A stretch of DNA of 40,645 bases, taken from positions 1 through 40,645 of the forward strand of contig JAUNSV010000013.1 in NCBI GenBank assembly GCA_030539055.1, read 5' to 3'. Positions within the stretch are counted from its first letter, which is position 1, and every line of letters starts with the position of its first letter. Positions 19,499 through 38,508 of this stretch are shown in pieces. Origin of the DNA: Eubacteriales bacterium. Its GTDB lineage: Bacteria > Bacillota > Clostridia > Lachnospirales > Lachnospiraceae. The notes below the pieces were generated by a model, which saw nothing but the letters and a program-made list of their open reading frames with translations, did not search any database and was not told where the DNA came from. The position numbers were made by a program, and so were the translations under genes.

Positions 19499-19527
19499 TT
19501 GACTTATATGCATATTTTATGTAAAAT
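19499..19527 (+). promoter_or_regulatory. Promoter of the purine-degradation operon
   Basis: TTGACT (19499-19504), 17-base spacer, TAAAAT (19522-19527). Predicted start near 19534, about 90 bases before ridA. No comparably good promoter was found between later genes of the operon, so this one probably drives ridA through xdhD. Confidence 0.75.
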
Positions 19528-19545
19528 AAAAACAAATAAAGTTTG

Positions 19546-19592
19546 GAGCTTTAGCAAAAGCCAATTCCTAAAGGGATTTGCTTTTGCTTTTT
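19546..19592 (+). promoter_or_regulatory. Terminator-like leader hairpin with an overlapping alternative fold
   Basis: AGCAAAAGC (19553-19561) pairs with GCTTTTGCT (19580-19588), then after one mismatch AATTCC pairs with GGGATT around a TAAA loop. That gives 15 pairs and ends in five T, an intrinsic terminator shape about 31 bases before ridA. The left arm is also shared by a second hairpin, GCTTT(AGCA)AAAGC at 19548-19561, with GGA/TCC possible outside it. The two folds exclude each other, as in an attenuator. The predicted leader is too short for a large riboswitch. Confidence 0.6.
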
Positions 19593-19623
19593 AATTAAAA
19601 AAAAATAAAAAGGAGAAATAAAA

Positions 19624-19992
19624 ATGAAAGTAATTAATACACAAAACGCACCAGCAGCTATAGGGCCATATTCACAAGCTTTTGAAGTAGGTAATTTAAT
19701 TATTACATCTGGTCAAATTCCTGTAGATCCAAAAACACAAGAAGCACCATCTGGCATAGAAGCACAAGCTAATCAATCTTGTTTAAATGTAAAAGCAATT
19801 TTGGAAGCAGCAGGATCAAGTATGGATAAAGTTATTAAAACAACTTGCTTTTTATCTGATATGGAAAATTTTGCAAAATTTAATGAAGTGTATGCAAAAC
19901 ATTTTACATCTAAACCAGCTCGTTCTTGCGTAGCTGTGAAAACAATTCCAAAAGGTTTACTTTGTGAAATAGAAGCTATAGCAGAAAAATAA
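19624..19992 (+). CDS. ridA: RidA family enamine/imine deaminase
   Basis: RidA hydrolyses 2-aminoacrylate and related imines to keto acids plus ammonia. The 122-residue product is standard: NAPAAIGPYSQAFEVGNLI at the start, SGQIPVDP, and the substrate-binding Arg in PARSCVAVKTIPKG, with the conserved ending CEIEAIAEK. AAGGAGAAAT precedes ATG 19624. It is the first gene of the purine operon. The operon also encodes the diaminopropionate lyase YgeX, which releases 2-aminoacrylate, so RidA probably clears that product to pyruvate. guaD begins four bases after its stop. Confidence 0.96.
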   Translation: MKVINTQNAPAAIGPYSQAFEVGNLIITSGQIPVDPKTQEAPSGIEAQANQSCLNVKAILEAAGSSMDKVIKTTCFLSDMENFAKFNEVYAKHFTSKPARSCVAVKTIPKGLLCEIEAIAEK

Positions 19993-19996
19993 TTTG

Positions 19997-21286
19997 ATGA
20001 ATAATTTTATTATAAAATCAAATATTATTTATTCAAAAACAAAAGATGAATTAAATTGTTTTAAAGATTCTTTTGTTGTATGTGAAAATGGGATATCAAA
20101 AGGTGTATTTGAAAAATTCGATTCAATACCTGAAATTTATAAAAATTTTAAAATTTTAGATTATTCTAATTTTTTATTAACACCTGGATTAAATGATATT
20201 CATATTCATGCCTGTCAATACGCTTTTATTGGTTTACATATGGATTTGGAATTATTGGATTGGTTGCAAAATTATACTTTTCCAGAGGAAGCAAAATACG
20301 AAGATACAAATTATGCAAAAAAAGCATATAGTATTTTTATATCTCAAATAAAAAAATCTTCTACAACAAGATTTGTATCCTTTGCTACAATGCACTTGGA
20401 AGCAAGTCTTATTTTGTGTGATTTGATTGAAGAGAGTAAATTAAAAGCATATATTGGTAAAGTAAATATGAATAGAAATGCACCAGCTAATTTATGCGAA
20501 GAATCAACTAAAAAATCCATAGAAGATACAAAAGAGTTTATAAAAAAAGTAGAAGAAAGAAAATATAAAAATGTTAATGCGATAATAACTCCTCGATTCA
20601 TTCCATCTTGTACTTCTGATTTATTAAAAGCTTTAGGAGAAATATCAAAAGAGTATCACTTAGCTATTCAATCTCATCTTGTAGAAAATCCAGAAGAAGT
20701 ATCTTGGGTAAAAGAATTAGAACCAAAATCAAGATCATATGCTGATGCATACCATATGTACAATTTGTTTGGCGAAAATGAGAGAACTATAATGGCTCAT
20801 TGTGTGTTCCCTACAGAATTAGATGAAGAATTACTACAAAATGGCAATGTGTGGGTAGCTCATGCTCCATCTTCTAATTCAAATATAAGATCTGGGATAG
20901 CACCTATTAGACGCTTTTTAAATAAAAATATCAAAGTAGGATTAGCAACAGATGTAGCAGGTGGCTCAACGCTTGATATGTGGGATGTAATTAGAGAAAG
21001 TATTCAAGTAAGCAAATTAAGATTTAGATATGTAGATGATACGCTAAAACCACTTAGTGCAAATGAAAGTTTTTATTTGGCAACAAAAGGTGGAGGCTCA
21101 TTTTTTGGAAAAGTAGGTTCATTTGATGAGGGATATGAATTTGATGCTTTGATATTAGATGATTTTCATACACCAAGTATACATCAAGATGAATTAACAT
21201 TAGATCAAAGATTAGAAAGATATATATATATTTCTTCACCAGAAAATCTAGTACATAAATTTGTAAATGGAGAAATGATTTTTTAA
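19997..21286 (+). CDS. guaD: Guanine deaminase
   Basis: Zinc amidohydrolase converting guanine to xanthine and ammonia, the entry of guanine into the operon's pathway. The 429-residue protein has NDIHIHACQYAF (metal HxH), the family-specific LLDWLQNYTFPEEAKY, IQSHLVEN, MAHCVFP and VGLATDVAGGSTLDMWD (metal Asp). The LDWLQ..TFP segment separates guanine deaminases from other amidohydrolases such as SsnA. ATG 19997 lies four bases after the ridA stop without a clear Shine-Dalgarno site, so coupling to ridA is likely; TTG 19994 is also in frame. Confidence 0.93.
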   Translation: MNNFIIKSNIIYSKTKDELNCFKDSFVVCENGISKGVFEKFDSIPEIYKNFKILDYSNFLLTPGLNDIHIHACQYAFIGLHMDLELLDWLQNYTFPEEAKYEDTNYAKKAYSIFISQIKKSSTTRFVSFATMHLEASLILCDLIEESKLKAYIGKVNMNRNAPANLCEESTKKSIEDTKEFIKKVEERKYKNVNAIITPRFIPSCTSDLLKALGEISKEYHLAIQSHLVENPEEVSWVKELEPKSRSYADAYHMYNLFGENERTIMAHCVFPTELDEELLQNGNVWVAHAPSSNSNIRSGIAPIRRFLNKNIKVGLATDVAGGSTLDMWDVIRESIQVSKLRFRYVDDTLKPLSANESFYLATKGGGSFFGKVGSFDEGYEFDALILDDFHTPSIHQDELTLDQRLERYIYISSPENLVHKFVNGEMIF

Positions 21287-21299
21287 AAAAGGAGGAAAT

Positions 21300-23714
21300 A
21301 TGATAAAAAAGAAAAGTCCTAAAACAGCAAAAAAAGCTACTTTCAAACCAGTAAAAAAGAAAGTATCTGATTTATTTATTCCAATAAAAGACAGAACTAC
21401 AGTAGGAAAGCCAGAAATAAGAGTTGATGCTAGAGCAAAAGTAACTGGTGATGCAAAATATACCAATGATCTTTGCCCTAGAGATGCTTATTGTGCTAAA
21501 GTGCTTTTTTCTACAATTGCAAATGGCGAAGTAATAAAAATGGATATTGAAGAAGCTTTAAAAGTAGAAGATGTGGTTGCAATTTATACTTGCTTTGATG
21601 TACCAGACCACGAATGGCCATCTGCTGGGCATCCATTCTCACTAGACCCAAGCCACAAAGACCCATCAGATAGAAAAATTTTAAATAAGAGAGTAAGAAT
21701 ATATGGCGATGATATTGCTGTAGTAGTAGCAAAAAATGAAGTGGCATGTGATAGAGCATTAAGATTAATAAAAGTAGAATACAATGAATTTACAGCTCTT
21801 ACAAATCCACATCAAGCTATGGAAAAAGATGCAACAGTTCTTCATCCCAATATTGCAAAAACAAATGCTTTTGCACATACAACATTTAAGAAAAAACCTG
21901 ATTTTGATTATGAAAAAGAAAAACAAATTGCTATCAAAAAATACAGTGAAGAAAATTTAGTAGAAGTAGTAAAACAATATAAAACACCACACATTTCGCA
22001 TTGTCATATTGAGCTTGCAAACTCTTATGCTTATATAGCAGCAGATGGAAAAATCACAGTAGTGTCTTCTACTCAAATACCTCACATTTGTAGAAGAATA
22101 GTAGCAGATGCACTTCAAATTGGGGTAGGAAAAGTAAGAATTATTAAACCATATCTTGGAGGTGGTTTTGGCAATAAACAAGATGTATTGTATGAACCGC
22201 TTGTAGCTTGGCTCACAACAAAATTGAATGGTCATTGTGTATACTTAGAATTACCTAGAGAAAATAATATTTCTGGTACAAGAACAAGACATGCGATGGA
22301 GGGTAATTTTAAATCACTTGCTACAAAAGATGGTACACTTCTTGCAAGAGATGTACAAATTTTTTCTGATAATGGAGGATATGCAGGGCATGGTCATTCT
22401 ATTGCAGCAAAATGTTCTGGTATAGTCAATAATTTATATAGAGATAGACAGGGTTCACAAGTAGATACTTATTCTGTATATACAAATACAGCAACTGCAG
22501 CAGCTATGAGAGCATATGGAATTCCTCAGGCTTGCTGGTTTGCAGAGAGTAATGTAGATGATATTTGCCACAAAGCAAATTTAGATCCATTAAAATTTAG
22601 ATATGATAATTGTGCTGACGATACTTTACTTTCAGGTGGAGTTGGTTTTTATACTTATGGTTTAAAAGAATGTATGAAAACAGGAGCAAAAGCTATAGGC
22701 TGGGGCAAAAAAAGAAAAGAGTATGCTAATCAAAGTGGTAATATTAGACATGGCATCGGTATGGGAATTTTCATTTATCAAACTGCAGTTTGGCCTATAT
22801 CTATGGAGCAAGATGGTGCTATGCTCATACTTAATCAAGATGGATCAGCAAATTTACTTTTGGGAGCTACAGAAATAGGGCAAGGGGGAGATACTGTTTT
22901 TACTCAAATGGCAGCAGATGCATGTGGATTCACATTTGATCAAATTCATATAGTATCAACTCAAGATACAGATTATTCTCCTTTTGGTACTGGTGCATAT
23001 GGTTCAAGACAAACTTATGTAGCAGGAAGAGCAGCAAAAAGAGCTGGAATAGAATTTAAGAGAGTAATACTTGAATATGCTTGTAAGCTTTTAAAAAGAA
23101 AATCTATTTCTGGTTTAGATATTGTAAAAAATAAAATAATAGATAAAAAAACAAAAAAGAAATTGATGAGTGTTGCAGATGTTGCTATACAATCATATTA
23201 CAACAAAGGTGATGCTGGAGCTTTAGCTGTAAGAGTACAAGAGGAAACAGAATCAAATTCATATGCATCTGGAGCAGTATTTGTAGATGTAACAGTTGAT
23301 ATGGCATTTGGAAAAATAAAAGTAGATAAATTAGTTGCTTGCCATGACTCTGGTATTCTTATTAATCCAGCATTAGCAAAAGCACAAGTACAAGGTGGAA
23401 TATCAATGTCGCTAGGATTTGGATTATCAGAAGAAATTTTATATGATGAAAAAACAGCAAAACCATTAAATAATAATTTACTTGATTATAAAATCCCAAC
23501 AGCAATGGATTCTATAGATTCAGAAATACATTTCATTCAATTAGAAGACCCTAGTGCACCTTATGGCAATAAAGCCTTGGGTGAACCTCCAGCAATTTTG
23601 CCATCAGTAGCTATAAGGAATGCAATTTTAAATGCAACAGGAGTAGCATTTGATCAAGCTCCGATGACACCACAAAGACTAGTCGAGGGCTTTAAGGCCT
23701 CTGGATTAATATAA
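21300..23714 (+). CDS. xdhA: Xanthine dehydrogenase, molybdenum-binding subunit
   Basis: Large catalytic subunit of a three-subunit xanthine dehydrogenase, 804 residues. After a Lys-rich N-terminal extension (about 25 residues) comes the a/b hammerhead domain (GKPEIRVDARAKVTGDAKYTND). Molybdopterin-contacting motifs follow: GGGFGNKQD, AAMRAYGIPQ, GATEIGQGGDTV, GTGAYGSRQT and, near the end, KALGEPPAI with the base-catalyst Glu. The usual RGFG loop reads RAYG here, as in some E. coli XdhA-like enzymes. RBS AAAGGAGG precedes ATG 21300, 13 bases after guaD. xdhB and xdhC follow at once. Oxidation of hypoxanthine or xanthine, or the reverse on urate, are the likely reactions. Confidence 0.93.
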   Translation: MIKKKSPKTAKKATFKPVKKKVSDLFIPIKDRTTVGKPEIRVDARAKVTGDAKYTNDLCPRDAYCAKVLFSTIANGEVIKMDIEEALKVEDVVAIYTCFDVPDHEWPSAGHPFSLDPSHKDPSDRKILNKRVRIYGDDIAVVVAKNEVACDRALRLIKVEYNEFTALTNPHQAMEKDATVLHPNIAKTNAFAHTTFKKKPDFDYEKEKQIAIKKYSEENLVEVVKQYKTPHISHCHIELANSYAYIAADGKITVVSSTQIPHICRRIVADALQIGVGKVRIIKPYLGGGFGNKQDVLYEPLVAWLTTKLNGHCVYLELPRENNISGTRTRHAMEGNFKSLATKDGTLLARDVQIFSDNGGYAGHGHSIAAKCSGIVNNLYRDRQGSQVDTYSVYTNTATAAAMRAYGIPQACWFAESNVDDICHKANLDPLKFRYDNCADDTLLSGGVGFYTYGLKECMKTGAKAIGWGKKRKEYANQSGNIRHGIGMGIFIYQTAVWPISMEQDGAMLILNQDGSANLLLGATEIGQGGDTVFTQMAADACGFTFDQIHIVSTQDTDYSPFGTGAYGSRQTYVAGRAAKRAGIEFKRVILEYACKLLKRKSISGLDIVKNKIIDKKTKKKLMSVADVAIQSYYNKGDAGALAVRVQEETESNSYASGAVFVDVTVDMAFGKIKVDKLVACHDSGILINPALAKAQVQGGISMSLGFGLSEEILYDEKTAKPLNNNLLDYKIPTAMDSIDSEIHFIQLEDPSAPYGNKALGEPPAILPSVAIRNAILNATGVAFDQAPMTPQRLVEGFKASGLI

Positions 23715-23728
23715 GGGGAGGTGAGAAT

Positions 23729-24640
23729 ATGTATGATATAAAATCATTTTATGAAGCAAAAAATGTAGAAGATGCAGTAGAAGCTCTACAAAAAGATGAA
23801 AATGCGATTATTATTTCTGGTGGCACAGATGTTTTAGTTAAAGTGCGGGAGGGAAAGGACGCAGGAAAATCATTAGTTTCTATTCACGAAATAGAAGATT
23901 TAAAAGGTGTAGAAATAGATAATGATGGAACAATTTTTATAAAATCAGCAACTGTTTTTTATGATATTACAAATAATGATATAATAAAAAAGCATATTGA
24001 TTTTTTGGGTGATGCTTGTGATGAAGTAGGTGGTCCTCAAATTAGGAATATGGGAACAATAGGTGGAAATATTTGTAATGGAGCAACAAGTGCAGACTCA
24101 GCTTCTTCTATGCAAGTGTTGAATGCTAAAGCAATTCTTAAAGGGCCAAATGGAACAAGAGAAGTAAATGTAGTAAAAGATTTTTATATAGGCCCAGGTA
24201 GAACAGTTAAAGATAGATCAGAAGTTTGTTTGGGATTCAAAATAGAAAAGAAAGAGTATGAAGGTTTCAAAGGTTCTTATTTAAAATATGGTAAAAGAAA
24301 ATCAATGGAAATAGCAACACTAGGCTGTGCTGTAATGCTAAAATTAGAAGATGATAATAAAACAATATCAGATTTCAAAATAGCATATGCAGTAGCAGCT
24401 CCTACTCCAATTAGATGTCCACAGACAGAACAATTTGCCAAAGGTCAAGATGTAACAAATGAAATTTTTTTGAAAGAGCTAGCTAACAAAGCTTTTTCGG
24501 AATGTAACCCTCGTTCAAGTTGGAGAGCTTCAAAAGAATTTAGAGAGCAAATTATTAAAGAGCTTGCAAAAAGAGCCACAACAAAAGCGTATGAAAAATG
24601 CGTAGGAAAATATAAAAAGGAGGTGTCTGTTACATGTTAA
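23729..24640 (+). CDS. xdhB: Xanthine dehydrogenase, FAD-binding subunit
   Basis: The 303-residue FAD subunit, passing electrons from the iron-sulfur subunit to NAD or another carrier. The FAD-binding PCMH fold shows ISGGTDVLVKVREGK, then GDACDEVGGPQIRNMGTIGG followed by NICNGATSADSASSM, the usual pyrophosphate-contacting loop. The C-terminal CO-dehydrogenase-flavoprotein domain has YAVAAPTPIRCPQTE. GGGGAGGTGAG precedes ATG 23729, the strongest ribosome site in the operon. It overlaps xdhC by seven bases. It is the only separate molybdenum-hydroxylase FAD subunit in the window. Confidence 0.95.
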   Translation: MYDIKSFYEAKNVEDAVEALQKDENAIIISGGTDVLVKVREGKDAGKSLVSIHEIEDLKGVEIDNDGTIFIKSATVFYDITNNDIIKKHIDFLGDACDEVGGPQIRNMGTIGGNICNGATSADSASSMQVLNAKAILKGPNGTREVNVVKDFYIGPGRTVKDRSEVCLGFKIEKKEYEGFKGSYLKYGKRKSMEIATLGCAVMLKLEDDNKTISDFKIAYAVAAPTPIRCPQTEQFAKGQDVTNEIFLKELANKAFSECNPRSSWRASKEFREQIIKELAKRATTKAYEKCVGKYKKEVSVTC

Positions 24641-25119
24641 ATATTATAAATTTTACATTGAATGGAGAAAATGTTGAAGTAGCAATTGATGAAAAAGAGA
24701 CACTTCTTGATGTACTTAGAAATAAATGCAATATGACTTCTGTAAAAAAAGGATGTGAAGTAGGTGAGTGTGGTGCTTGCACAGTTCTAATTAATGGAAG
24801 AGCAGTTGATACTTGTTTATACTTAGCTATGTGGGCAAAAGATAAATCAATACTCACAGTAGAGGGTTTAATGAACAAAAAAACAGGGGAGTTATCTAAA
24901 ATACAACAAGCATTTATTACAGAGACAGCAGTTCAATGTGGCTTTTGTATTCCAGGTATAATTATGACAGCTGTAGAAGTATTGGAGTATGGAAGACCAT
25001 TCACAAGAGATGAATTAAGAAAATTAATTTCTGGTCACTTATGCAGATGCACTGGTTATGAAAATATCTTAAATGCAATAGAAAAAGTAATGATAGAAAA
25101 GTACGGGCTAAAAAAATAA
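24634..25119 (+). CDS. xdhC: Xanthine dehydrogenase, [2Fe-2S] subunit
   Basis: The 161-residue iron-sulfur subunit linking the molybdenum site to FAD. The plant-ferredoxin-type cluster is bound by CEVGECGACTVLING with a fourth Cys in VDTCLYL. The second, helical cluster domain has CGFCIPGIIM and CRCTGYENI. All eight Cys are present. Its start lies within the end of xdhB, after AAGGAGGTG. This completes a normal A-B-C enzyme of the E. coli XdhABC layout. Confidence 0.97.
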   Translation: MLNIINFTLNGENVEVAIDEKETLLDVLRNKCNMTSVKKGCEVGECGACTVLINGRAVDTCLYLAMWAKDKSILTVEGLMNKKTGELSKIQQAFITETAVQCGFCIPGIIMTAVEVLEYGRPFTRDELRKLISGHLCRCTGYENILNAIEKVMIEKYGLKK

Positions 25120-25153
25120 TTAATACTAAAATAATAATAAAGGAGCGTTAAAG

Positions 25154-26368
25154 ATGTTTGCAAAAAATGATTTTAAGTACAAAATGAATACTATGCCACA
25201 ATCAGATGATAAGAATTTAAGTCTTATGTCTGAAACGGAAATCAAAAAGGCAAGAAAATTTCATGAAAGCTTTCCTCAATATGAAGTAACACCTTTAGTT
25301 GATTTGAAAGAAATGGCTAAATATTTGGGATTAAAAAAAGTAAGTGTAAAAGATGAATCATACCGTTTTGGATTAAATGCTTTTAAAGTTCTTGGTGGTT
25401 CTTTTGCAATGGCAAAGTATATTGCATCAAAATTAAATAGGGATGTAAGCGAATGTGATTATAATTATCTTACATCAGACAATTTAAAAAAAGAATTTGG
25501 TCAAACTACATTTTTTTCTGCAACCGATGGTAATCATGGAAGAGGAGTAGCTTGGAGTGCAAATAAGCTTGGACAAAAAGCAGTAATACTTATGCCAAAA
25601 GGATCTACAAAAACTCGTTTTGATAATATACAAAAAGAGGGTGCTAAAGTAACTATTGAAGAAGTAAATTATGATGAATGTGTTCGTATGGCAGCTGCAC
25701 AATGTAAAACATTAACAGATAAAGGCGAAAGTGCTGTAGTAGTTCAAGATACAGCCTGGGAGGGTTACACAGAAATTCCTACCTATATAATGCAGGGATA
25801 TGGTACAATGTCTTCAGAAGCTGTTGAACAACTTGGAGAAAGACCAACACATATTTTTGTGCAAGCTGGAGTAGGTTCTCTTGCTGGAGCAGTAGTAGGT
25901 TATTTTTCAAATAAGTATAAAGATAATCCACCAAAAATGATAGTAGTAGAGACTTCATGTGCAGATTGCTTGTATAAAGGAGCTCTTGCTAATGATGGAA
26001 ATCCACGAATAGTAGATGGAGAAATGAATTCAATTATGGCAGGCCTATGCTGTGGTGAACCAAGTACTATTTCTTGGGACATATTAAGAAATCATGTAAG
26101 TGCTTTTATATCTGCAGAGGATATAGTAGCTGCAAGAGGAATGAGAATGCTAGGATCCCCTCTAAAAGGCGATAAACCAATAGTATCTGGCGAATCTGGT
26201 GCAGTACCATTTGGTGCATTAGCAACAATAATGCTTAGTGATGATTTTAAAGAATTGAGAGAAGAATTAGATTTAAATAGTAATTCAAATGTATTATTAT
26301 TTTCTACAGAGGGAGATACAGACCCTATAAGATGGAAAAATATTATTTGGGAAGCAAAAGAAAGATAA
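25154..26368 (+). CDS. ygeX: Diaminopropionate ammonia-lyase
   Basis: PLP enzyme that splits 2,3-diaminopropionate into 2-aminoacrylate (then pyruvate) and ammonia. The 404-residue protein matches E. coli YgeX in size. The PLP Lys is residue 78 in GLNAFKVLGGSFA. The Asn/Gly loop TDGNHGRGVAW and the phosphate-holding glycine loop VQAGVGSLAGAVVG are clear, and SGESGAVPFGAL near the end is typical. AAAGGAGCG precedes ATG 25154. It lies among ygeY, ygeW, ssnA, ygfK and xdhD, the set shown in gut bacteria to be needed for anaerobic urate use. There it would make pyruvate-level carbon from a ring-opening product. Confidence 0.96.
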   Translation: MFAKNDFKYKMNTMPQSDDKNLSLMSETEIKKARKFHESFPQYEVTPLVDLKEMAKYLGLKKVSVKDESYRFGLNAFKVLGGSFAMAKYIASKLNRDVSECDYNYLTSDNLKKEFGQTTFFSATDGNHGRGVAWSANKLGQKAVILMPKGSTKTRFDNIQKEGAKVTIEEVNYDECVRMAAAQCKTLTDKGESAVVVQDTAWEGYTEIPTYIMQGYGTMSSEAVEQLGERPTHIFVQAGVGSLAGAVVGYFSNKYKDNPPKMIVVETSCADCLYKGALANDGNPRIVDGEMNSIMAGLCCGEPSTISWDILRNHVSAFISAEDIVAARGMRMLGSPLKGDKPIVSGESGAVPFGALATIMLSDDFKELREELDLNSNSNVLLFSTEGDTDPIRWKNIIWEAKER

Positions 26369-26399
26369 TTAAAATAAAAAAATATAAGGAGAAAAATTT

Positions 26400-27719
26400 A
26401 TGGATTTTAAAAAGATTCAAGAAGCATCACAAAAGTATTCAAAAGATATGAATGCTTTTTTAAGAGCAATCGTATTAAACAAAGGTGAGTCATGTGGAGA
26501 AAAAGCACACATAGCTACTATTGAAAAGGAAATGAAGAAATTAAAATTTGACAAAGTTCAAATTGACAAAATGGGAAATGTAATTGGTTATATGGGTAAT
26601 GGACCTAAAATTATTGCTTTTGATGCACATATTGATACAGTAGGAATAGGAAATATTGCAAATTGGAAATTTGATCCATATAAAGGATATGAAAATGCAA
26701 CAGAAATTGGTGGAAGAGGTACATCTGATCAATTAGGTGGTATTGTATCTGCAACTTATGGTGCAAGAATAATGAAAGATTTAGACCTAATACCAAAAGG
26801 ATATAAAATAATGGTTGTTGGATCTGTACAAGAGGAAGATTGTGATGGATTATGTTGGCAATATATAATTAAAGAAGATAAGATTCGCCCAGAGTTTGTA
26901 GTTTCTACAGAGCCTACAGATGGTGGAATATATAGAGGACAGCGTGGTAGAATGGAAATAAGAATAGATGTAAAAGGTATTTCTTGCCACGGTTCAGCGC
27001 CAGAGAGAGGGGATAATGCTATATACAAAATGGCAGATATTCTTCAAGATGTAAGAAGTTTAAATTCAAATCCAAAAACAGATAAAAAAATACCAGGGCT
27101 TGCAAAAATGCTTGATCCAAAATTCAATAAAGATTATAAAGAAGCAAAATTCCTTGGAAGAGGTACAGTAACTTGTTCAGAAATATTTTTCACATCTCCA
27201 TCAAGATGTGCTGTAGCAGATTCTTGTAGCGTATCACTCGATAGAAGAATGACATTTGGAGAAACTTGGCAATCTTGTATTAAAGAAATAGAAAATTTAC
27301 CAGCAGTAAAAAAATATAAAAAAGATGTAAAAGTTTCTATGTATAAATATGATAGACCATCTTACAAAAACTTGGTTTATCCTATAGAATGCTACTTCCC
27401 AACTTGGGCTATACCAAGAGATCATAAAGTAACTAAAGCACTTGAAAAAGCATATGTTTCTTTGTTTGGTAAAAAAAGAATTGGGCTAGATCCAAAAATG
27501 ACTCCAAAACAAAAAGAGAGAAGAAAAGCAACATTAGTAGATAAATGGACATTTTCTACAAATGGTGTTACTATCATGGGAAGAAATAAAATTCCTTGTA
27601 TAGGATTTGGACCTGGAGCAGAATCAGAAGCACATGCACCTAATGAACATACATGGAAAAAAGATTTGGTAACTTGTGCAGCAACTTATGCAGCACTACC
27701 ACTATGTTACGCACAATAA
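26400..27719 (+). CDS. ygeY: YgeY family M20 metallohydrolase
   Basis: A 439-residue peptidase M20 family amidohydrolase, similar to ArgE/DapE. Metal ligands appear in FDAHIDTVG (His77, Asp79), the catalytic pair in VQEEDCDGL (near residue 145), STEPTDGG, a dimerisation-domain His in [14 protein letters not shown] and the final metal His in AHAPNEHTW. It is part of the conserved ygeW-ygeX-ygeY group and probably hydrolyses an amide or ureido bond of a purine-ring fragment upstream of YgeX; the precise substrate is inferred, not seen. RBS AAGGAGAAA precedes ATG 26400, 31 bases after ygeX. Confidence 0.93.
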
Positions 27720-27741
27720 AAATAATAAGGAGAAAAAAACA

Positions 27742-28941
27742 ATGGCAACAGATTTCAACAAAGCAATAGAAGCGTTAAAGAAATTAAATTTTAAAAATAT
27801 GTATAGGAAAGATTTCTTTCTTACTTGGGACCACACTATTGAAGAATTAAAATCCGTTTGGAATGTAGCAGATGCATTAAGAGCACTTCGTGAACAAAAT
27901 ATTTCTACAAAAGTATTTGATTCTGGTTTAGGAATTTCTATTTTTAGAGATAATTCTACAAGAACAAGATTTTCTTTTGCATCAGCTTGTAATTTACTTG
28001 GGTTAGAAGTACAAGACTTGGATGAGAAGAAATCTCAAATAGCACATGGAGAAACTTTAAGAGAGACAGCAAATATGGTTTCTTTTATGGCAGATGTTAT
28101 TGGTATTAGAGATGATATGTATATAGGAAAGGGGCACACTTACCAAAAAGATTTTTGTGATTCTGTTGAATATGGTTATGAGCATGGCATACTAGAGCAA
28201 AGACCTTATTTAGTAAATTTACAATGTGATATAGATCACCCAACACAAGTTATGGCAGATGCTGCACACTGTATAAGAGAGTTTGGTGGAGTAGAAAATT
28301 TAAAAGGAAAGAAAATTGCTATGACTTGGGCTTACTCTCCATCTTACGGAAAACCACTTTCTGTACCTCAAGGTGTTGTAGGATTATTCTCAAGACTAGG
28401 AATGGAAGTATCACTTGCTTATCCAGAGGGCTACGAAATAATGGATGATGTTGTAGAAGTAGCAAAAAAACAAACAAGTGAATCAGGTGGCAAATTTAGT
28501 ATATCACACGATATGAAAGAAGCATTTAAAGATGCAGATATAATTTATCCAAAATCTTGGGCACCTTTCAAAGCTATGGAAAAAAGAACAGACCTTTACT
28601 CAAAAGGCGATCAAGAGGGAATTGATAAATTAGAAAAAGAATTGCTATCACAAAACGCTAATCATAAGGACTGGGCATGTACAGAAGATATGATGAAACT
28701 TACAAAAGGTGGAAAAGGATTATATTTACATTGCTTACCAGCAGATATAACAGGCCTTTCTTGTAAAGAGGGCGAAGTAGATAAATCAGTATTTGATAGA
28801 TACTTAGATCCACTTTATAAACAAGCTTCTTTCAAACCATATGTTATAGCAGCTATGATTATGCTTGCACAATTTGAGAATCCAGTTAAGATATTAGAGG
28901 ATTTAAAAAGTAAAAAGAGTGATAGAGTTTTTGAAAGATAA
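27742..28941 (+). CDS. ygeW: YgeW family carbamoyltransferase
   Basis: A 399-residue knotted-fold carbamoyltransferase related to ornithine/aspartate transcarbamylases. The carbamoyl-phosphate loop is FRDNSTRTRFSFASA; other family signatures are DEKKSQIAHGE, ADAAHCIREFG, MTWAYSPSYGKPLSVPQG and LHCLPADI. In a catabolic setting it likely runs as a phosphorolytic carbamoyl transfer that yields carbamoyl phosphate and hence ATP from a ureido intermediate; that direction is inferred. I chose ATG 27742 behind AAGGAGAAAA; an in-frame upstream start at 27676 lies inside ygeY and has no ribosome site. Confidence 0.94.
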   Translation: MATDFNKAIEALKKLNFKNMYRKDFFLTWDHTIEELKSVWNVADALRALREQNISTKVFDSGLGISIFRDNSTRTRFSFASACNLLGLEVQDLDEKKSQIAHGETLRETANMVSFMADVIGIRDDMYIGKGHTYQKDFCDSVEYGYEHGILEQRPYLVNLQCDIDHPTQVMADAAHCIREFGGVENLKGKKIAMTWAYSPSYGKPLSVPQGVVGLFSRLGMEVSLAYPEGYEIMDDVVEVAKKQTSESGGKFSISHDMKEAFKDADIIYPKSWAPFKAMEKRTDLYSKGDQEGIDKLEKELLSQNANHKDWACTEDMMKLTKGGKGLYLHCLPADITGLSCKEGEVDKSVFDRYLDPLYKQASFKPYVIAAMIMLAQFENPVKILEDLKSKKSDRVFER

Positions 28942-29002
28942 TTTTTAAATAATACTACTTTAAGATAAAGAAAATCAATTTGATTAAAAGGAGAAAAACT
29001 TC

Positions 29003-30334
29003 ATGATTATTGTATACAATGGTAGAATGATAACTAGAGATGAAAAAAATCCTTTTATTGAAGACGGTGCAGTTTTAATTGATGGTAAAATAATTAAGGA
29101 AGTAGGTAAAACTACCCAATTAAAGAAAAAATATCCAAAGTCAGAATTAATAGATGCAAAAGGCGGGCTTATTATGCCTGCCTTTATTAATATGCATGAA
29201 CATATTTATTCTGCAATGGCTAGAGGATTATCAATAAAAGGATATAAAGGAAATACATTTTTAGAAATATTAGATGGTCAATGGTGGAAAATAGACAGAA
29301 ACCTAAACAATAATTTGACATACTATAGTGCATTAGAAACATATATTGAATGTATAAAAAATGGAGTAACAACAATTTTTGATCATCATGCATCCTTTGG
29401 AGAAATAACTAATTCACTAGATTTTATAGAGAAAGCAAATAATGAACTAGGTCTTAGATCTTGCTTGTGTTATGAAACATCCGATAGAGATGGTCAAAAA
29501 AAATCAGATAGTGCTATAAAAGAAAATATAAGATTTATTAAAAAATGTGAAAAAGATAAAAGTGATATGATAAAAGCTATGTTTGGAATGCATGCACAAT
29601 TTACTTTATCAGATAAAACATTAGAAAAAAGTATGAAAGATATTCCAAAAGGAGTAGGTGTACATATTCATGTAGCAGAGGGTATTGAAGATTTACACGC
29701 TTGCCTTAAAGATCATCACAAAAGAATAGTGGATAGACTATATGATTTTGGAATACTTGGCGAAAAGACTATGCTTGCACATGCTATATATGTAAATGAA
29801 CATGAATTAGATTTAATCAAACATTCAAACACTATGGTAGTGCATAATCCAGAGTCAAATATGGGCAATGCCTGTGGTTGCCCTCCAACCTTAAGACAAT
29901 TTCAAAAAGGAATTTTAGTAGGGCTTGGTTCAGATGGTTACACACATGATATGATGGAATCATACAAAGTAGCAAAACTACTTCATCAACATTCAAATTG
30001 TGATGCAACATGCGCTTGGGGTGAGATACCAGCTATGCTATTTGAAAACAATGCAAAAATGGCAAATAGATATTTTAAAACACCACTTGGTAAAATTAAA
30101 AAAGGATATTCTGGAGATGTAATAGTAGTGAATTATATTCCACCAACACCAATGAATAAAGATAATATCAGTGGTCATTTACTTTTTGGTATAAATGGTG
30201 CTATGGTAAATACTACTATTTGTGCTGGAAAAGTGCTAATGAAAGATAGAAAGTTACAAAATATAGATGAAGAGAAAACACTAGCAAAAATAAGAGAAGC
30301 AAGTAAAGTACTATGGAAAAAAATAAATGGATAA
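29003..30334 (+). CDS. ssnA: SsnA family aminohydrolase
   Basis: A 443-residue amidohydrolase-superfamily enzyme of the SsnA type, a marker gene of the selenium/molybdenum hydroxylase cluster. Metal ligands are in FINMHEHIYSAMARG (HxH), the His of VHIHVAEG, the His of MLAHAIYV and the Asp of VGLGSDGYTHDM. SsnA proteins are required with YgfK and XdhD for anaerobic purine use and probably hydrolyse a purine or ring-opened intermediate. It is distinct from GuaD in the same operon, lacking the LDWLQ..TFP segment. AAAGGAG lies upstream of ATG 29003. ygfK follows 12 bases later. Confidence 0.93.
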   Translation: MIIVYNGRMITRDEKNPFIEDGAVLIDGKIIKEVGKTTQLKKKYPKSELIDAKGGLIMPAFINMHEHIYSAMARGLSIKGYKGNTFLEILDGQWWKIDRNLNNNLTYYSALETYIECIKNGVTTIFDHHASFGEITNSLDFIEKANNELGLRSCLCYETSDRDGQKKSDSAIKENIRFIKKCEKDKSDMIKAMFGMHAQFTLSDKTLEKSMKDIPKGVGVHIHVAEGIEDLHACLKDHHKRIVDRLYDFGILGEKTMLAHAIYVNEHELDLIKHSNTMVVHNPESNMGNACGCPPTLRQFQKGILVGLGSDGYTHDMMESYKVAKLLHQHSNCDATCAWGEIPAMLFENNAKMANRYFKTPLGKIKKGYSGDVIVVNYIPPTPMNKDNISGHLLFGINGAMVNTTICAGKVLMKDRKLQNIDEEKTLAKIREASKVLWKKING

Positions 30335-30346
30335 AAAGGAGATTAT

Positions 30347-33300
30347 ATGCGTGATATTATGACACCAATTCCATTTGATAGTTTAATGAAATGGATATTA
30401 GATGAAAATAAAAAGCACAATAAAGTATTTGGATTGCATACTTTGTATCATGCAAATTCAAAAAAAACATATTCTATTTTTGGTAAAAAAATAGAAACAT
30501 TGATTGGACCAGCAGCAGGACCACACACACAATTAGCACAAAATATAATTGCTTCGTATTTAGAGGGAGCAAGATTTATTGAATTAAAAACTGTACAAAA
30601 ATTAGATGGGCTAGATTTACCAGTTTCTAAACCTTGTATCAAAGCAGATGATGAGGGATACAATTGTGAGTGGTCTACGGAATTGTTTATACCACAAGCT
30701 TTTGATGAATATGTAAAAGCATATTTTGCTATTAAAATATTATCTAAGGAGTGGGGCTTAGGAGATATGGATGCATTTTTATTCTCTATGTCTGTAGGTT
30801 ACGATTTAGATGGTATAAAAACAAAAAAAATAAACGATTTCATAGAGGGCTTAAAGGATGCTACAAATACACCACAATTTATTGAATGCAAAGAGTGGTT
30901 AGAGAAAAATATTAAATTATTTAAAAAGTTCAAGAAAGCAGATATTTCAAAAATTTCTGGAAAAATATGTAACCAAGTAACACTATCAACACTTCATGGT
31001 TGCCCACCAAAAGAGATAGAAAGAATTGCTACTTATTTAATCACAGAGAAGAAGCTTCACACTCTAATAAAATGTAATCCTACACTTTTAGGTTATGATT
31101 ATGCAAGAAAAATGCTAGATGATCTAGGTTATGATTATATAAAATTTGGAGAGTTTCATTTTAATGATGATCTTCAATACAAAGATGCACTTCCTATGCT
31201 AAGCAGATTAAAAAAGATTGCAGAAGAAAAAAAATTAAAATTTGGAGTAAAAATTACAAACACATTTCCTGTAGATGTAAAAGAGGACGAACTTCCAAGT
31301 GAAGAAATGTATATGTCTGGAAGAGCTTTATTTCCTTTATCATTGTCTGTAGCTATGAAATTAGCTAATGATTTTGATGGAGAGCTTATGATTTCTTACT
31401 CTGGTGGATGTGATGCTAATAATGTAAATAAATTACTTGAAGCAGGTATTTTTCCTATAACAGTAGCTACAACTCTTTTAAAACCAGGTGGATATGGAAG
31501 ATTCATTCAACTTGCAGAAAGTTCTACTAATGTAAAAGTAAAAGGAAATGATAAAGTAAATGCACAATTAATAAGTTCAATGGTTAATTCATTGAAGAAA
31601 GATACAAATCTTATAAAAAAAGAAAGACCAGATAAAAATAGAACAATAGGAAGAGAAAAGAAAGTACCTCTTATAGATTGTTTTATTGCACCTTGTATGG
31701 AAACTTGCCCTATTCATCAAGATATTACTACATATGGTGCTTTGGTAGGAGAGGGAAAATATGAAGAAGCACTTAAAGTAATCCTTGAAAAAAATCCACT
31801 TCCTTTTATTACAGGTACAATATGTAATCATAAATGTATGCAATCATGTACAAGAAATTATTATGAAGAATCAATTCAAATAAGACACAATAAACTGCTT
31901 GCTGCAATAATAGGTTATGATAAAGTAATAAAAGAAATAAAAATACCAAAAGCAAATGGCAAAAAGGTAGTAGTTGTAGGTGCAGGCCCAGCTGGAATAT
32001 CTGTAGCTACATTTCTTGCAAAAAGAGGATACAGAGTTAAAGTATTTGATAAAGATTCAAAAATTGGTGGAATAGTAAGAAATGTAATTCCATCGTTCAG
32101 AATAAAAGAAGAGTATATCGAAAAAGATGTATCATTTGCAAAAGCACTAGGAGTAGAATTTGTTTTAGGTAGAAAAGTGTTAGATATAAAACAATTGATT
32201 AAAGAAGAAAAAGCAAATTATGGAGTTCTTGCAATAGGTGCAAACAAAAATACAAAATTACCTCTTGAATCTGGCAATGCTATAAAGGCACACTCTTTCT
32301 TAAGAGATTATAATTTATCTGGTGGTAATATTCAAATAGGCGAGAATGTAATAGTAGTTGGTGGTGGCAATACAGCAATGGATGCAGCAAGAGCAGCTAA
32401 AAGAACAAAAGGCGTAAAAAATGTTTATCTATTATATAGAAGAAGCAAAATGTTTATGCCAGCAGATGAAGAAGAGTTGAGAGAAGCAATGGATGATGGA
32501 GTTATTTTTAAAGAATTGTTGCTACCTGTATCATTAAAATCTGGAATAGCAATTTGTAAAAAAATGATCCTAGGAGAAAAAGATGAAAGTGGAAGAAGAA
32601 AAGTAACAGAGAGTGATACAATAGAAGAGATTAAATGTGATACTATTATTGCTGCAATAGGAGAAACAGTAGATAGCGATGTATATTCTAATATGGGTAT
32701 ATTAGTAGATGAAAAAGGAAAAGCAATAGTAGATCAAAATAATCAAACAAGTATAAAAAATGTTTATGTAGCAGGAGATTGCAACAAAGGAGCAAGTGTA
32801 GTAGTAAATGCTATTAAAGATGCTATGATAGTTGCGGAAGGTATATCTGGGAAAAAATTATTCAAAAACTTGCCATCTCAAATGAAAGAAGAAGAGCATT
32901 ATAGTAGAAAAATTAAAATCACTAATTGTGAAATTTGTTTACTGAATAAAAATGAAAAAGATAAAATATTAGAGCCAGATAAAAAGAGATGCTTGTGCTG
33001 TGATACTATATGTGAAAATTGTGTAGAAGTTTGCCCAAACAGAGCAAATGTTTCTATAGAAGTAGACCCAAAATACCAAAAGTTATTTAATTCAAAATAT
33101 CAAATAATACATATAGATTATATGTGCAATGAATGTGGTAATTGTAAAACATTTTGCCCATACAACTCAGCACCTTATAAAGAAAAATTTACATTATTTT
33201 TGAATAAACAAGATTTATACGCAAGTGAGAATCAAGGATTTTGCCCTATAAGTAAAGATAGTTTTCTTGTAAAATTAGATAATACATTTTATACATACAA

Positions 33301-33391
33301 AATAGGTGATACAAAAGTAAAATTTGATAAAAGAATAGGAATAATAATAGATACAATTATTAAAAAATATTCATATTTGATATGGAAGTAA
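30347..33391 (+). CDS. ygfK: YgfK family iron-sulfur flavoprotein oxidoreductase
   Basis: A 1014-residue multi-domain electron-transfer protein, the right size for YgfK. The N-terminal half resembles dihydropyrimidine/dihydroorotate dehydrogenase barrels (GPAAGPHTQLAQN, STLHGCPPKEIERIA). A GltD-like part follows with Cys motifs CMETCPIHQDI and CNHKCMQSC, an FAD site VVVVGAGPAGIS near residue 545, and an NAD(P) site VIVVGGGNTAMDAARA near residue 667. The end carries two ferredoxin-like [4Fe-4S] motifs (CENCVEVCP and CNECGNCKTFCP). It is annotated in databases as putative selenate reductase subunit, but genetics in gut anaerobes ties it to urate/purine use. It probably exchanges electrons with the purine ring or with XdhD. 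Spacing 12 bases after ssnA. Confidence 0.94.
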   Translation: MRDIMTPIPFDSLMKWILDENKKHNKVFGLHTLYHANSKKTYSIFGKKIETLIGPAAGPHTQLAQNIIASYLEGARFIELKTVQKLDGLDLPVSKPCIKADDEGYNCEWSTELFIPQAFDEYVKAYFAIKILSKEWGLGDMDAFLFSMSVGYDLDGIKTKKINDFIEGLKDATNTPQFIECKEWLEKNIKLFKKFKKADISKISGKICNQVTLSTLHGCPPKEIERIATYLITEKKLHTLIKCNPTLLGYDYARKMLDDLGYDYIKFGEFHFNDDLQYKDALPMLSRLKKIAEEKKLKFGVKITNTFPVDVKEDELPSEEMYMSGRALFPLSLSVAMKLANDFDGELMISYSGGCDANNVNKLLEAGIFPITVATTLLKPGGYGRFIQLAESSTNVKVKGNDKVNAQLISSMVNSLKKDTNLIKKERPDKNRTIGREKKVPLIDCFIAPCMETCPIHQDITTYGALVGEGKYEEALKVILEKNPLPFITGTICNHKCMQSCTRNYYEESIQIRHNKLLAAIIGYDKVIKEIKIPKANGKKVVVVGAGPAGISVATFLAKRGYRVKVFDKDSKIGGIVRNVIPSFRIKEEYIEKDVSFAKALGVEFVLGRKVLDIKQLIKEEKANYGVLAIGANKNTKLPLESGNAIKAHSFLRDYNLSGGNIQIGENVIVVGGGNTAMDAARAAKRTKGVKNVYLLYRRSKMFMPADEEELREAMDDGVIFKELLLPVSLKSGIAICKKMILGEKDESGRRKVTESDTIEEIKCDTIIAAIGETVDSDVYSNMGILVDEKGKAIVDQNNQTSIKNVYVAGDCNKGASVVVNAIKDAMIVAEGISGKKLFKNLPSQMKEEEHYSRKIKITNCEICLLNKNEKDKILEPDKKRCLCCDTICENCVEVCPNRANVSIEVDPKYQKLFNSKYQIIHIDYMCNECGNCKTFCPYNSAPYKEKFTLFLNKQDLYASENQGFCPISKDSFLVKLDNTFYTYKIGDTKVKFDKRIGIIIDTIIKKYSYLIWK

Positions 33392-33409
33392 AATAAATTT
33401 TATTCAATT

Positions 33410-33441
33410 CTATACTGCTTAATATTTTTTAAGCAGTATAG
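33410..33441. repeat. Perfect 13-pair inverted repeat between ygfK and xdhD
   Basis: CTATACTGCTTAA and TTAAGCAGTATAG flank a six-base TATTTT loop. No T-tract follows on either strand, so it is not a typical terminator. In the operon mRNA it would form a stable stem between two coding regions, suggesting a processing or stability element. Confidence 0.8.
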
Positions 33442-33473
33442 GAAAAGAATAAAAAAACAAATGAGGAATGAAA

Positions 33474-36116
33474 ATGGATCTTATACAAAATGGAGAAAAA
33501 GCTTTATTAAATATAAATGGAAAAGAAGTAGAAGCACCTAGTAAAAAGAAGTTGATTAACTTTTTAAGAGAAGACTTAAAAATTACTTCTGTAAAAGATG
33601 GTTGTAGTGAGGGAGCTTGTGGTACCTGCTCTGTAATAGTTGATGGAAAAGTTCAAAAAACTTGTGTATTATCTTGTGAAAAATTTGTATCAAAAAAGAT
33701 ATTAACAATAGAGGGCTTTAGTGAAAAAGAGAAAAAAATATACGCTTATGCTTTTGGAAAATGTAGCGCTGTGCAATGTGGTTTTTGTATACCAGGAATG
33801 GTTATATGTGCTAAGTCATTGATTGATATTAATAATAATCCTACAAAATTAGATGCTATTAATGCTATAAGAAATAATTATTGTAGATGTACAGGATATA
33901 AAAAAATTATAGATGCAATACTCTTAAGTGCGAAAATAATAAGAATGAATTTAAATATAGATGAATTGGAAAAAGAAGAAAAAGATACTACTGAAAATGG
34001 TTTAGGAGATGATGTAATAAGAATAGATGCAAGAGAAAAAGCTCTTGGTAAGGGAATATATTGTGATGATATATACTTAGAGGGTATGCTTTGTGCTTCA
34101 GCACTTAGATCAAAATATCCTAGAGCAAGAGTGATTAAAATAGATACAGAAGAAGCATTGAATAGTGAGGGAGTAAAAGCAATTTATACTTGGAAAGATG
34201 TGCCAGGTGAGAATAAAGTAGGTCATTTAAAACACGACTGGAATACATTTATTAAAGAGGGAGAAATAACACATTATATTGCAGATGTAATATGCTTAGT
34301 TGTAGCAGATACTTGGGAGCATGTAAAAGAAGCAAAAGAAAAAATAGTTGTAGAGTATGAAGAATTGAAAGGAATATTTTCTATTGAAGATGCATTGAAA
34401 GAGGGTGCAGAAAAAGTACATTTTAATGAAGAATCAAATGTTTTAGTAGAAAAACATTTAATAAGAGGAAATGCCGATGAAGTAATAAAAAATAGTAAAT
34501 ATAAAATTACAAAGCATTATTCACTCCCAGCTGGAGAGCACGCTTTTCTTGAACCAGAATGCAGTGTAGCACTTCCACTTGGTGATGGTGTATTCATATA
34601 TTCTACAGACCAATCACCATATGATATAAGAAGAGAAACTTCTATTATGCTTGGTCTTCCAGAAGAAAAAGTAGTAGTAGAGAATGCATATGTTGGTGGT
34701 GGATTTGGTGGAAAGGAAGATGTATCTGTTCAACACTTAGCAGCACTCGCAGCATACAAATTAAAACTACCAGTAAAATGCAAATTAACAAGACAAGAAT
34801 CATTAAATTTTCATCCCAAAAAGCATCCAATGGAAATAGATATGACTACTGCTTGTGATGAAAAAGGTCATTTGACAGCAATGAAAGCTGTAGTGTATGC
34901 TGATACTGGAGCTTATGCTTCACTGGGTGGACCAGTACTAGAGAGAGCTTGCACACATGCAGCAGGGCCATATAATTATCAAATAGTAGATATTTTAGGA
35001 AAAGCAATATATACAAATAATCCACCAAGTGGTGCATTTAGAGGTTTTGGAGTTACTCAAACTTGCTTTGCAACAGAAATGAATATAAATGAATTAGCTA
35101 AAATGGTAGGAATTGATCCATTTGAATTTAGATATATTAATGCTATAAGGAAAGGAGAAGTTCTCCCAAATGGTCAAATTGCAGATGATTCTACAGGTCT
35201 TGTAGAAACACTCGATAGCATAAAAGAAGAGTATTATAAAAATAAATATGTAGGCATAGCTTGTGCAATGAAAAATGCAGGAGTAGGAGTTGGTATTAAA
35301 GATGTAGGGCGTGTAAAATTAATTATAGAAAAAGGTAAAGTAAATATTTATACTTCAGCTTCATGTATAGGTCAAGGCTCAGGTACTGTAATGACACAAT
35401 TTGTATGTAACGAATTAGGATTAAAATTGGAAGATGTAATATGGCATAATCCAAACACAAACACCTGCCCCGACTCTGGAACTACCTCAGGCTCAAGACA
35501 AACACTTATTACAGGAGAAGCTTGTAGGAGAGCTTGTGAATTGTTAAAAGAAGATTTAAAACTAGATATTAATGATAATAACAAAAAAGAAGTATATGAA
35601 AAATTGAAAGACAAATTGAATAGTGTAGGAAGAAAAGAATATTATGCTGAATACGATGATCCAACAGACAAACTAGGATCAGACAAACAAAATCCAAAAT
35701 CTCATATAGCTTATGGATATGCAACTCAAGTTTGTATATTGAATGAAGATGGTTCTATAAAAAAAATATTAGCATCACATGAAGTAGGAAAATGTGTAAA
35801 TGTAAAATCCACAGAGGGGCAAATAGAGGGTGGAGTAGTAATGTCTTTAGGTTATGCTCTAACAGAAGATTTAAAAATAAAAGATGGTGTACCTCAATGT
35901 AAATATGGCACTCTTGGATTGTTTAGAGCAGATAAAGTGCCAGAGATAGAAGCTATAATAGTAGAAAAAAAAGGAATAGAATCTGCACATGGTGCCATAG
36001 GTATAGGAGAAATAACATCAATCCCTACAGCTCCAGCTGTAGCAAGTGCTTATGAAAAATTCTTAAACAAAACTATTACATCGCTACCAATACAAGGAAC
36101 TATATACAAAAAATAA
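33474..36116 (+). CDS. xdhD: Selenium-dependent-type molybdenum hydroxylase, fused [2Fe-2S] and molybdenum domains (XdhD-like)
   Basis: An 880-residue fusion. Residues 1-160 carry both [2Fe-2S] domains (CSEGACGTCSVIVDGK, then CGFCIPGMVIC and CRCTGYKKI). The rest is the molybdenum domain: GKGIYCDDI, GGGFGGKEDVSVQH, GAFRGFGVTQ, CIGQGSGTVMTQF and GIGEITSIPTAPA with the catalytic Glu. The order and the GIGEI ending match the XdhD group, predicted or shown to carry a labile selenium ligand. I chose the second ATG (33474), six bases after GAGGA; the first (33468) directly abuts that site. No FAD subunit (YgfM type) is beside it, unlike E. coli, so electrons may pass to YgfK. It likely oxidises or reduces a purine carbon. 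Confidence 0.9.
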   Translation: MDLIQNGEKALLNINGKEVEAPSKKKLINFLREDLKITSVKDGCSEGACGTCSVIVDGKVQKTCVLSCEKFVSKKILTIEGFSEKEKKIYAYAFGKCSAVQCGFCIPGMVICAKSLIDINNNPTKLDAINAIRNNYCRCTGYKKIIDAILLSAKIIRMNLNIDELEKEEKDTTENGLGDDVIRIDAREKALGKGIYCDDIYLEGMLCASALRSKYPRARVIKIDTEEALNSEGVKAIYTWKDVPGENKVGHLKHDWNTFIKEGEITHYIADVICLVVADTWEHVKEAKEKIVVEYEELKGIFSIEDALKEGAEKVHFNEESNVLVEKHLIRGNADEVIKNSKYKITKHYSLPAGEHAFLEPECSVALPLGDGVFIYSTDQSPYDIRRETSIMLGLPEEKVVVENAYVGGGFGGKEDVSVQHLAALAAYKLKLPVKCKLTRQESLNFHPKKHPMEIDMTTACDEKGHLTAMKAVVYADTGAYASLGGPVLERACTHAAGPYNYQIVDILGKAIYTNNPPSGAFRGFGVTQTCFATEMNINELAKMVGIDPFEFRYINAIRKGEVLPNGQIADDSTGLVETLDSIKEEYYKNKYVGIACAMKNAGVGVGIKDVGRVKLIIEKGKVNIYTSASCIGQGSGTVMTQFVCNELGLKLEDVIWHNPNTNTCPDSGTTSGSRQTLITGEACRRACELLKEDLKLDINDNNKKEVYEKLKDKLNSVGRKEYYAEYDDPTDKLGSDKQNPKSHIAYGYATQVCILNEDGSIKKILASHEVGKCVNVKSTEGQIEGGVVMSLGYALTEDLKIKDGVPQCKYGTLGLFRADKVPEIEAIIVEKKGIESAHGAIGIGEITSIPTAPAVASAYEKFLNKTITSLPIQGTIYKK

Positions 36117-38474: not shown

Positions 38475-38508
38475 AATACAAATGTATTACATTTTAAGGA
38501 GGTCAAAA

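Follow-up and report, generated by a model that had tools for sequence, protein, structure and literature searches.

The 40,645 nt window analysed here (contig JAUNSV010000013.1 of GenBank assembly GCA_030539055.1, contig C40 of a Lachnospiraceae genome of 1.51 Mb, 99% complete, named Eubacteriales bacterium) carries on its + strand a row of 11 genes, ridA-guaD-xdhA-xdhB-xdhC-ygeX-ygeY-ygeW-ssnA-ygfK-xdhAC, which belongs to the known type of reductive urate-degradation cluster, has a gene order of its own and includes, in RidA, an under-described partner. We hold with good confidence that the row encodes most of the known reductive purine-breakdown (fermentation) pathway, with GuaD and XdhABC feeding guanine and xanthine into it and RidA clearing 2-aminoacrylate. 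Gene identities and genome content come from our sequence analysis and the chemistry from published enzymes of E. coli, C. difficile and C. sporogenes; we infer all activities, as well as the role of RidA, the coupling of GuaD and XdhABC to the route and expression as a single operon.

The open reading frame (ORF) list and family profile searches place the 11 genes at 19624-36116, with gaps, in gene order, of 1, 13, 14, -7, 34, 31, 22, 61, 12 and 76 nt (Table 1). An earlier sequence-only reading of this DNA had described eleven co-directional, tightly spaced genes for anaerobic purine and urate use, fed from guanine and xanthine and headed by RidA, and the gap range of -7 to 76 nt and the family matches bear this out. 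A GGAG-type ribosome site precedes eight of the 11 starts (that of xdhC was not among the starts displayed), and 10 of the 11 proteins pass the curated cut-off of their family, including YgeX, YgeY, YgeW, SsnA and YgfK, which thus occur together. The exception, GuaD, still has the guanine deaminase family as its best match, as has the GuaD of a genome of the same genus, G040, likewise under the cut-off (337.7 bits); aligned with E. coli GuaD, the window protein retains metal-ligand-like histidines, which we take to be the metal ligands. Two starts deserve correction: ATG at 19997 is likelier for guaD than the listed TTG (19994), and the ygeW frame opens with GTG at 27676 while ATG at 27742 agrees better with the family match and the ribosome site. 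Insertions in YgeY relative to E. coli were dropped as an oddity, being common to the four congeners aligned, with one insertion in shorter form.

Table 1. Features of the gene row and its flanks, with the matches behind each assignment.
Feature	Position	Strand	Evidence or remark
ridA, enamine/imine deaminase	19624..19992	+	TIGR00004 164 bits, cut-off 106
guaD, guanine deaminase	19994..21286	+	TIGR02967 349.8 bits, under cut-off 375.4
xdhA, molybdenum subunit of xanthine dehydrogenase	21300..23714	+	NF043082 1024.5 bits, cut-off 780
xdhB, flavin adenine dinucleotide (FAD) subunit	23729..24640	+	NF043083 402.5 bits, cut-off 310
xdhC, 2Fe-2S subunit	24634..25119	+	NF043084 236.8 bits, cut-off 217
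ygeX, 2,3-diaminopropionate ammonia-lyase	25154..26368	+	TIGR03528 603.3 bits, cut-off 532
ygeY, M20-family ureido hydrolase	26400..27719	+	TIGR03526 635.9 bits, cut-off 321.5
ygeW, knotted carbamoyltransferase	27742..28941	+	TIGR03316 747 bits, cut-off 500
ssnA, aminohydrolase	29003..30334	+	NF005540 664.6 bits, cut-off 444
ygfK, likely yanthine reductase	30347..33391	+	TIGR03315 1286 bits, cut-off 835
xdhAC, fused Fe-S/molybdenum hydroxylase, likely urate reductase	33468..36116	+	TIGR03311 1186 bits, cut-off 830; TIGR03313 167 bits
mntP-like manganese efflux pump, possible operon tail	36131..36697	+	PF02659 175 bits; 14 nt after xdhAC
EamA-domain membrane protein, possible operon tail	36725..37138	+	PF00892; gap 27 nt
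moaC-moaA, molybdenum cofactor synthesis, likely own unit	17812..19346	+	277-nt gap with hairpin before ridA
Promoter-like site TTGACT-17-TAAAAT	19499..19527	+	10/12 matches
Hairpin and T run	~19553..19595	+	moaA terminator or leader attenuator; -19.7 kcal/mol for 19530-19625, z -2.37

The published reductive route leads from urate through yanthine, dihydroyanthine, ureidomethylhydantoin, diureidopropionate and diaminopropionate to pyruvate, and its step order, which the sequence-only reading still regarded as incompletely described, was settled in 2025 except for which ureido group leaves first (PMC12507026, partial text; PMC12990295). Mapped onto this chemistry, GuaD would convert guanine to xanthine, XdhABC would oxidise xanthine to urate and XdhAC would reduce urate to 2,8-dioxopurine (yanthine), whose pyrimidine ring YgfK and SsnA would reduce and then open. 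HyuA, encoded on another contig, would open the hydantoin; YgeW would phosphorolyse one ureido group to carbamoyl phosphate, from which a carbamate kinase, also encoded on another contig, would make adenosine triphosphate (ATP), and YgeY would remove the other ureido group. YgeX would turn diaminopropionate into 2-aminoacrylate and then pyruvate and ammonia, with RidA hydrolysing free 2-aminoacrylate and thereby sparing pyridoxal-phosphate enzymes from poisoning, and PFOR and acetate kinase would take pyruvate to acetate with a second ATP.

The claim that the steps from guanine to an amino-acid-like fragment are joined in the row is right for most of them; HyuA and carbamate kinase are encoded outside the window, on contig C69 (hyuA at C69:74893-76260, 478 bits against a cut-off of 393; carbamate kinase at C69:77351-78280, ArcC 371 bits against 358). 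Finding hyuA there led us to reject new chemistry at the absent HyuA step. All enzymes of the published pathway are present in the genome, with XdhAC replacing XdhD-YgfM, and are spread over two contigs, while feeder, maturation and energy genes sit on further contigs: an adenine deaminase gene (592 bits, cut-off 472) neighbours a PF00860 permease gene on C81, a PbuX-like permease scoring under the PbuX cut-off is encoded on C51, SelD on C49, YqeB (TIGR03309) on C77, PFOR on C70 and acetate kinase on C66. With YqeC, which has a MocA-like half and is encoded on C69, the genome holds the selD, yqeB and yqeC trio that marks a selenium-dependent molybdenum hydroxylase system. By family name, none of the 11 row genes belongs to the xanthinase pathway of purinolytic clostridia, for which no genome-wide search was made. 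Between the carbamate kinase and hydantoinase genes of C69 lies a HipA_C-domain ORF of 301 aa (L097:16242-17147).

Counted per molecule, the available electrons are 8 in guanine, xanthine, yanthine and acetate, 6 in urate, 2 in formate and 10 in each compound from dihydroyanthine through pyruvate. By this arithmetic, the fermentation of xanthine to acetate with 3 CO2 and 4 ammonia balances exactly and that of guanine to acetate is likewise redox-neutral, whereas urate to acetate is two electrons short, the equivalent of one formate, which agrees with formate being a reported co-substrate for urate breakdown by Enterococcus and E. coli (PMC12507026, partial text). GuaD and XdhABC coupled to the reductive route would therefore need no outside donor such as formate. 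The XdhABC and XdhAC pair would bring about a net isomerisation of xanthine to yanthine, because the two electrons that XdhABC gives off for each xanthine match the two that XdhAC takes up, and the YgfK reduction would be balanced by pyruvate oxidation. A bolder proposal, quite possible if short of probable, unites these points: that guanine and xanthine use is self-balanced, yielding acetate and 2 ATP with XdhABC/XdhAC as net isomerase, and that RidA is, in this family, an undescribed partner selected against the 2-aminoacrylate of YgeX.

Judged by the gaps and the absence of listed internal terminators, the row is probably one operon, for which a single promoter is plausible. No + strand terminator was listed by the scan within the 11 genes, which is weak evidence because the scan also overlooked the leader hairpin that RNA folding places between the promoter-like site and ridA, and promoter-like sites of the kind found at 19499-19527 are not above chance in the region (96 found, 107.9 expected). 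Two or more transcripts, one of ridA-guaD-xdhABC and one from ygeX onward, are an unlikely arrangement, though the strongest of the alternatives considered here. Promoter-like sites do occur inside the row, and in five congeners (G040, G300, G301, G302 and G303) ygeX-ygeY-ygeW precede xdhABC, a block order opposite to that of the window, so the blocks were rearranged. Yet such sites are no commoner in the region than chance would give, and the xdhC-ygeX junction, where the split would fall, measures only 34 nt and has no listed terminator-like hairpin. The single operon need not end at 36116, as the mntP-like and EamA-like genes follow closely. At its other end, the position of the hairpin 3′ of the promoter-like site leaves room for possible attenuation. 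The hairpin sequence does not recur in the congener and locus DNA compared, and a conserved leader hairpin was discarded, the 15 congener upstream stretches examined having other hairpins or none. Likewise discarded was a purine riboswitch in the ridA leader, where no Rfam family reached its gathering score and a lax search gave chance-level matches only.

RidA combines its TIGR00004 match with the conserved arginine of the PARSC motif, presumably the catalytic one. In Salmonella three enzymes have been shown to release 2-aminoacrylate, among them diaminopropionate ammonia-lyase (PMC9239102 and PMC9127364, partial texts), the type of enzyme to which YgeX belongs. This gives RidA a direct reason to stand beside YgeX; we propose that RidA probably clears the 2-aminoacrylate formed by YgeX. 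The association is not confined to the window. In our family sample of 300 genomes, 47 have a YgeW over cut-off, at 48 places, and 45 of these 47 hold between them 57 RidA matches above cut-off. Of the 47 genomes, 17 have RidA no more than 20 kb from ygeW, against 0.69 expected from rounded genome sizes, within 5 kb in nine (0.19 expected) and within 1 kb in six (0.06 expected); the 17 include the source genome and G040, and removing the former leaves 16 of 46. For the 47 places other than the window, stretches of up to 20 kb were fetched, some of them clipped by contig ends; nine of these loci hold ridA, on the ygeW strand in eight. Neither PMC12507026, PMC2276186 and PMC11448449 nor a literature search, a scope outside which the key primary papers of 2023 and 2025 fall, mention RidA, and as a pathway partner it is under-described.

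An unlikely alternative is that RidA clusters here on account of carbamoyl phosphate, limiting carbamoylation damage from the YgeW/ArcC flux rather than removing 2-aminoacrylate. S. enterica lacking ridA is harmed by carbamoyl phosphate overproduction and RidA genes cluster with carbamoyl-phosphate genes, although the effect has no defined biochemical basis and, in a pilot test by the same authors, RidA of S. enterica failed to hydrolyse carbamoyl phosphate (PMC4433059, partial text). Gene positions are divided: in six of the nine ridA-holding family loci ridA lies between ygeW and the gene for carbamate kinase, but in the window, G040 and G306 it is beside guaD and away from arcC.

The last enzyme of the row had been called XdhD-type in the sequence-only reading and is instead of the XdhAC type. 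It scores 1186 bits with TIGR03311 and 167 with TIGR03313 (cut-off 1102), the reverse of E. coli XdhD (300 and 2123 bits, respectively). In the alignment the window enzyme keeps CSEGACGTC, CGFC and CRC, which we take to be cysteine motifs for a pair of 2Fe-2S clusters; the corresponding residues of E. coli XdhD are different. No FAD-subunit gene of its own lies beside xdhAC, so that the locus departs from the E. coli XdhD/YgfM type and fits an alternative, fused XdhAC without its own FAD subunit; the XdhB of the row might conceivably serve XdhAC. By description it resembles the XdhAC variant of C. sporogenes and the FAD-less enzyme of C. difficile (PMC12990295; PMC12507026, partial text). Glu606 of XdhD proved uninformative as a test for urate reductase, because the insertion in which it sits is missing from both window enzymes. 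It is improbable that XdhAC and XdhABC both merely interconvert xanthine and urate, with the row scavenging nitrogen only when urate is supplied and guaD and ridA as passengers: the TIGR03311 family is named selenium-dependent xanthine dehydrogenase, and guaD is separable since it lies opposite to the ygeW strand in eight of the nine guaD-holding loci among the 47 fetched, but two distant molybdenum enzymes in one row (XdhAC and XdhA are 28% identical) suggest two reactions, XdhAC adjoins ygfK as expected of a yanthine-forming enzyme, and all nine genus genomes with a full XdhAC, the source included, also have an xdhA-type paralogue.

Several observations count against reading the row as a reductive purine-breakdown cluster with RidA as its partner. 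XdhAC is only 23% identical to E. coli XdhD, the enzyme shown to make yanthine, lacks its Glu606-bearing insertion and has no FAD partner of its own; its putative role leans on the C. sporogenes XdhAC, likened to it by description. The row itself lacks hyuA. The window ridA is the sole TIGR00004 match in the source genome and therefore might be a housekeeping gene that happens to have been captured by the operon; the RidA count includes G292 on the strength of an incomplete gene at the end of a contig, and its tail probability is too small because the genomes are related. In G305 (95% complete), ygeX-ygeY-ygeW-xdhABC-ssnA occur with only paralogues of XdhAC in the genome and with ygfK absent from the fetched 20 kb, which indicates that some of these genes can do without the others.

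Among 13 genus genomes, a full XdhAC is found in nine (source included), in two pieces at contig ends in G310 and as a scrap in G306, with only paralogues in G305 and G307. The fullest congener cluster, G040, reads ygeX-ygeY-ygeW-xdhA-xdhB-xdhC-ssnA-ygfK-xdhAC-hyuA-permease-ade-ridA-guaD on one strand, and G300, G301, G302 and G303 follow this order, also on one strand, as far as the fetched stretches reach. These five thus share their genes and single strand with the window and differ from it in starting with ygeX-ygeY-ygeW and having ORFs in the gaps (one of these congener extras has a MOSC domain), whereas the window starts with ridA-guaD-xdhABC and has hyuA, permease and ade genes elsewhere. 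Two pieces of G304 fit the G040 order, with ygeX and ygeY separated by a UacT-like gene; G306 shows hyuA-permease-(ORF)-ridA-guaD and G310 xdhAC-hyuA-ygeX-ygeY-ygeW, and in G308 and G309 xdhABC and permease lie on a different contig from ssnA-ygfK-xdhAC. The genus shows several arrangements, of which that of the window is the most compact seen.

In the wider family the usual layout is divergent, with ssnA or ygfK opposite to the ygeW strand in 32 of the 47 fetched loci. The six core genes are all present in eight of these loci and share a strand in two of them (L142 and L168); nine hold guaD, which shares the ygeW strand in one. Among the best 80 of 525 named loci, also clipped, six hold the six core genes, on one strand in four, of which three are from Veillonella; ridA occurs in four of these 80 and guaD in none. 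L061 of the named set and L168 of the family set are probably one record, and the two sets therefore overlap. Like the window, Veillonella L006, L010 and L016 and Lachnospiraceae L061/L168 and L142 have the six core genes on one strand; unlike it, these Veillonella and Lachnospiraceae clusters include a gene for carbamate kinase in their run, and those of Veillonella also a UacT-like permease gene.

E. coli K-12 likewise carries ygeX, ygeY, ygeW, ssnA, ygfK, xdhABC and guaD on one strand within 27 kb, in the layout ygeW-ygeX-ygeY-hyuA-yqeA ... ygfK-ssnA-ygfM-xdhD with xdhABC and guaD nearby. It differs from the window in using XdhD and YgfM in place of XdhAC, in having hyuA and yqeA inside the cluster and no ridA in the stretch, and in runs interrupted by regulator or accessory genes (ygeV, yqeB and yqeC) on the other strand. 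Most of these genes were already shown clustered in E. coli and E. faecalis in a 2008 table (PMC2276186, partial text). Against the E. coli set and the larger version in G040, the unusual membership seen by the sequence-only reading does not hold up: membership is ordinary, and a co-directional full set is uncommon yet not unique. Near ygeW, moaA is found also in L147, L170, L174, L064 and L068, some of them perhaps the same record, on the opposite strand.

Bacteria with the reductive urate pathway consume gut urate, and engineered E. coli Nissle carrying the pathway lowered serum urate in mice (PMC12507026, partial text). If RidA does guard the last step, engineered strains with too little RidA could suffer self-poisoning when flux is high; should xanthine and guanine use be self-balanced and urate use donor-dependent, the choice of purine would be set by diet and by neighbouring organisms.

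Contig C69 holds further genes of possible relation to nitrogen-ring foods. One run at C69:93.4-105.1 kb (L098:13359-19247 and L102:1007-9073) encodes PucR, AllH, AllG, a coenzyme A-ligase-type protein (FdrA/AllF-like), a PF04199 cyclase, a second XdhB-XdhC-XdhA set and an NCS2 carrier closest to uracil permease. The run looks like an oxidative ring-cleavage route that would end in carbamoyl phosphate, and our guess at its substrate path would be uracil to barbiturate, ureidomalonate and malonamate; judged by title and abstract, none of the papers listed by a literature search deals with such a gene set. XdhA paralogues of similar size and score occur in five congeners (G040, G300, G301, G302 and G304). 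Elsewhere on C69 (L097:3196-8142), genes for urocanase, an amidohydrolase and formate-tetrahydrofolate ligase adjoin, likely for the breakdown of histidine, another nitrogen-ring food.

Away from the row, the window encodes at 191-3723 a DNA methylase (PF01555) and a ResIII/DEAD helicase in ORFs with a 4-nt overlap, resembling a type III restriction system. Two ORFs, at 15858-16310 (150 aa) and 37522-38142 (206 aa), have no Pfam or NCBIfam match. The ORF at 4695-5174 weakly matches a PIN domain, and that at 38482-38781 encodes a RelB-like antitoxin.

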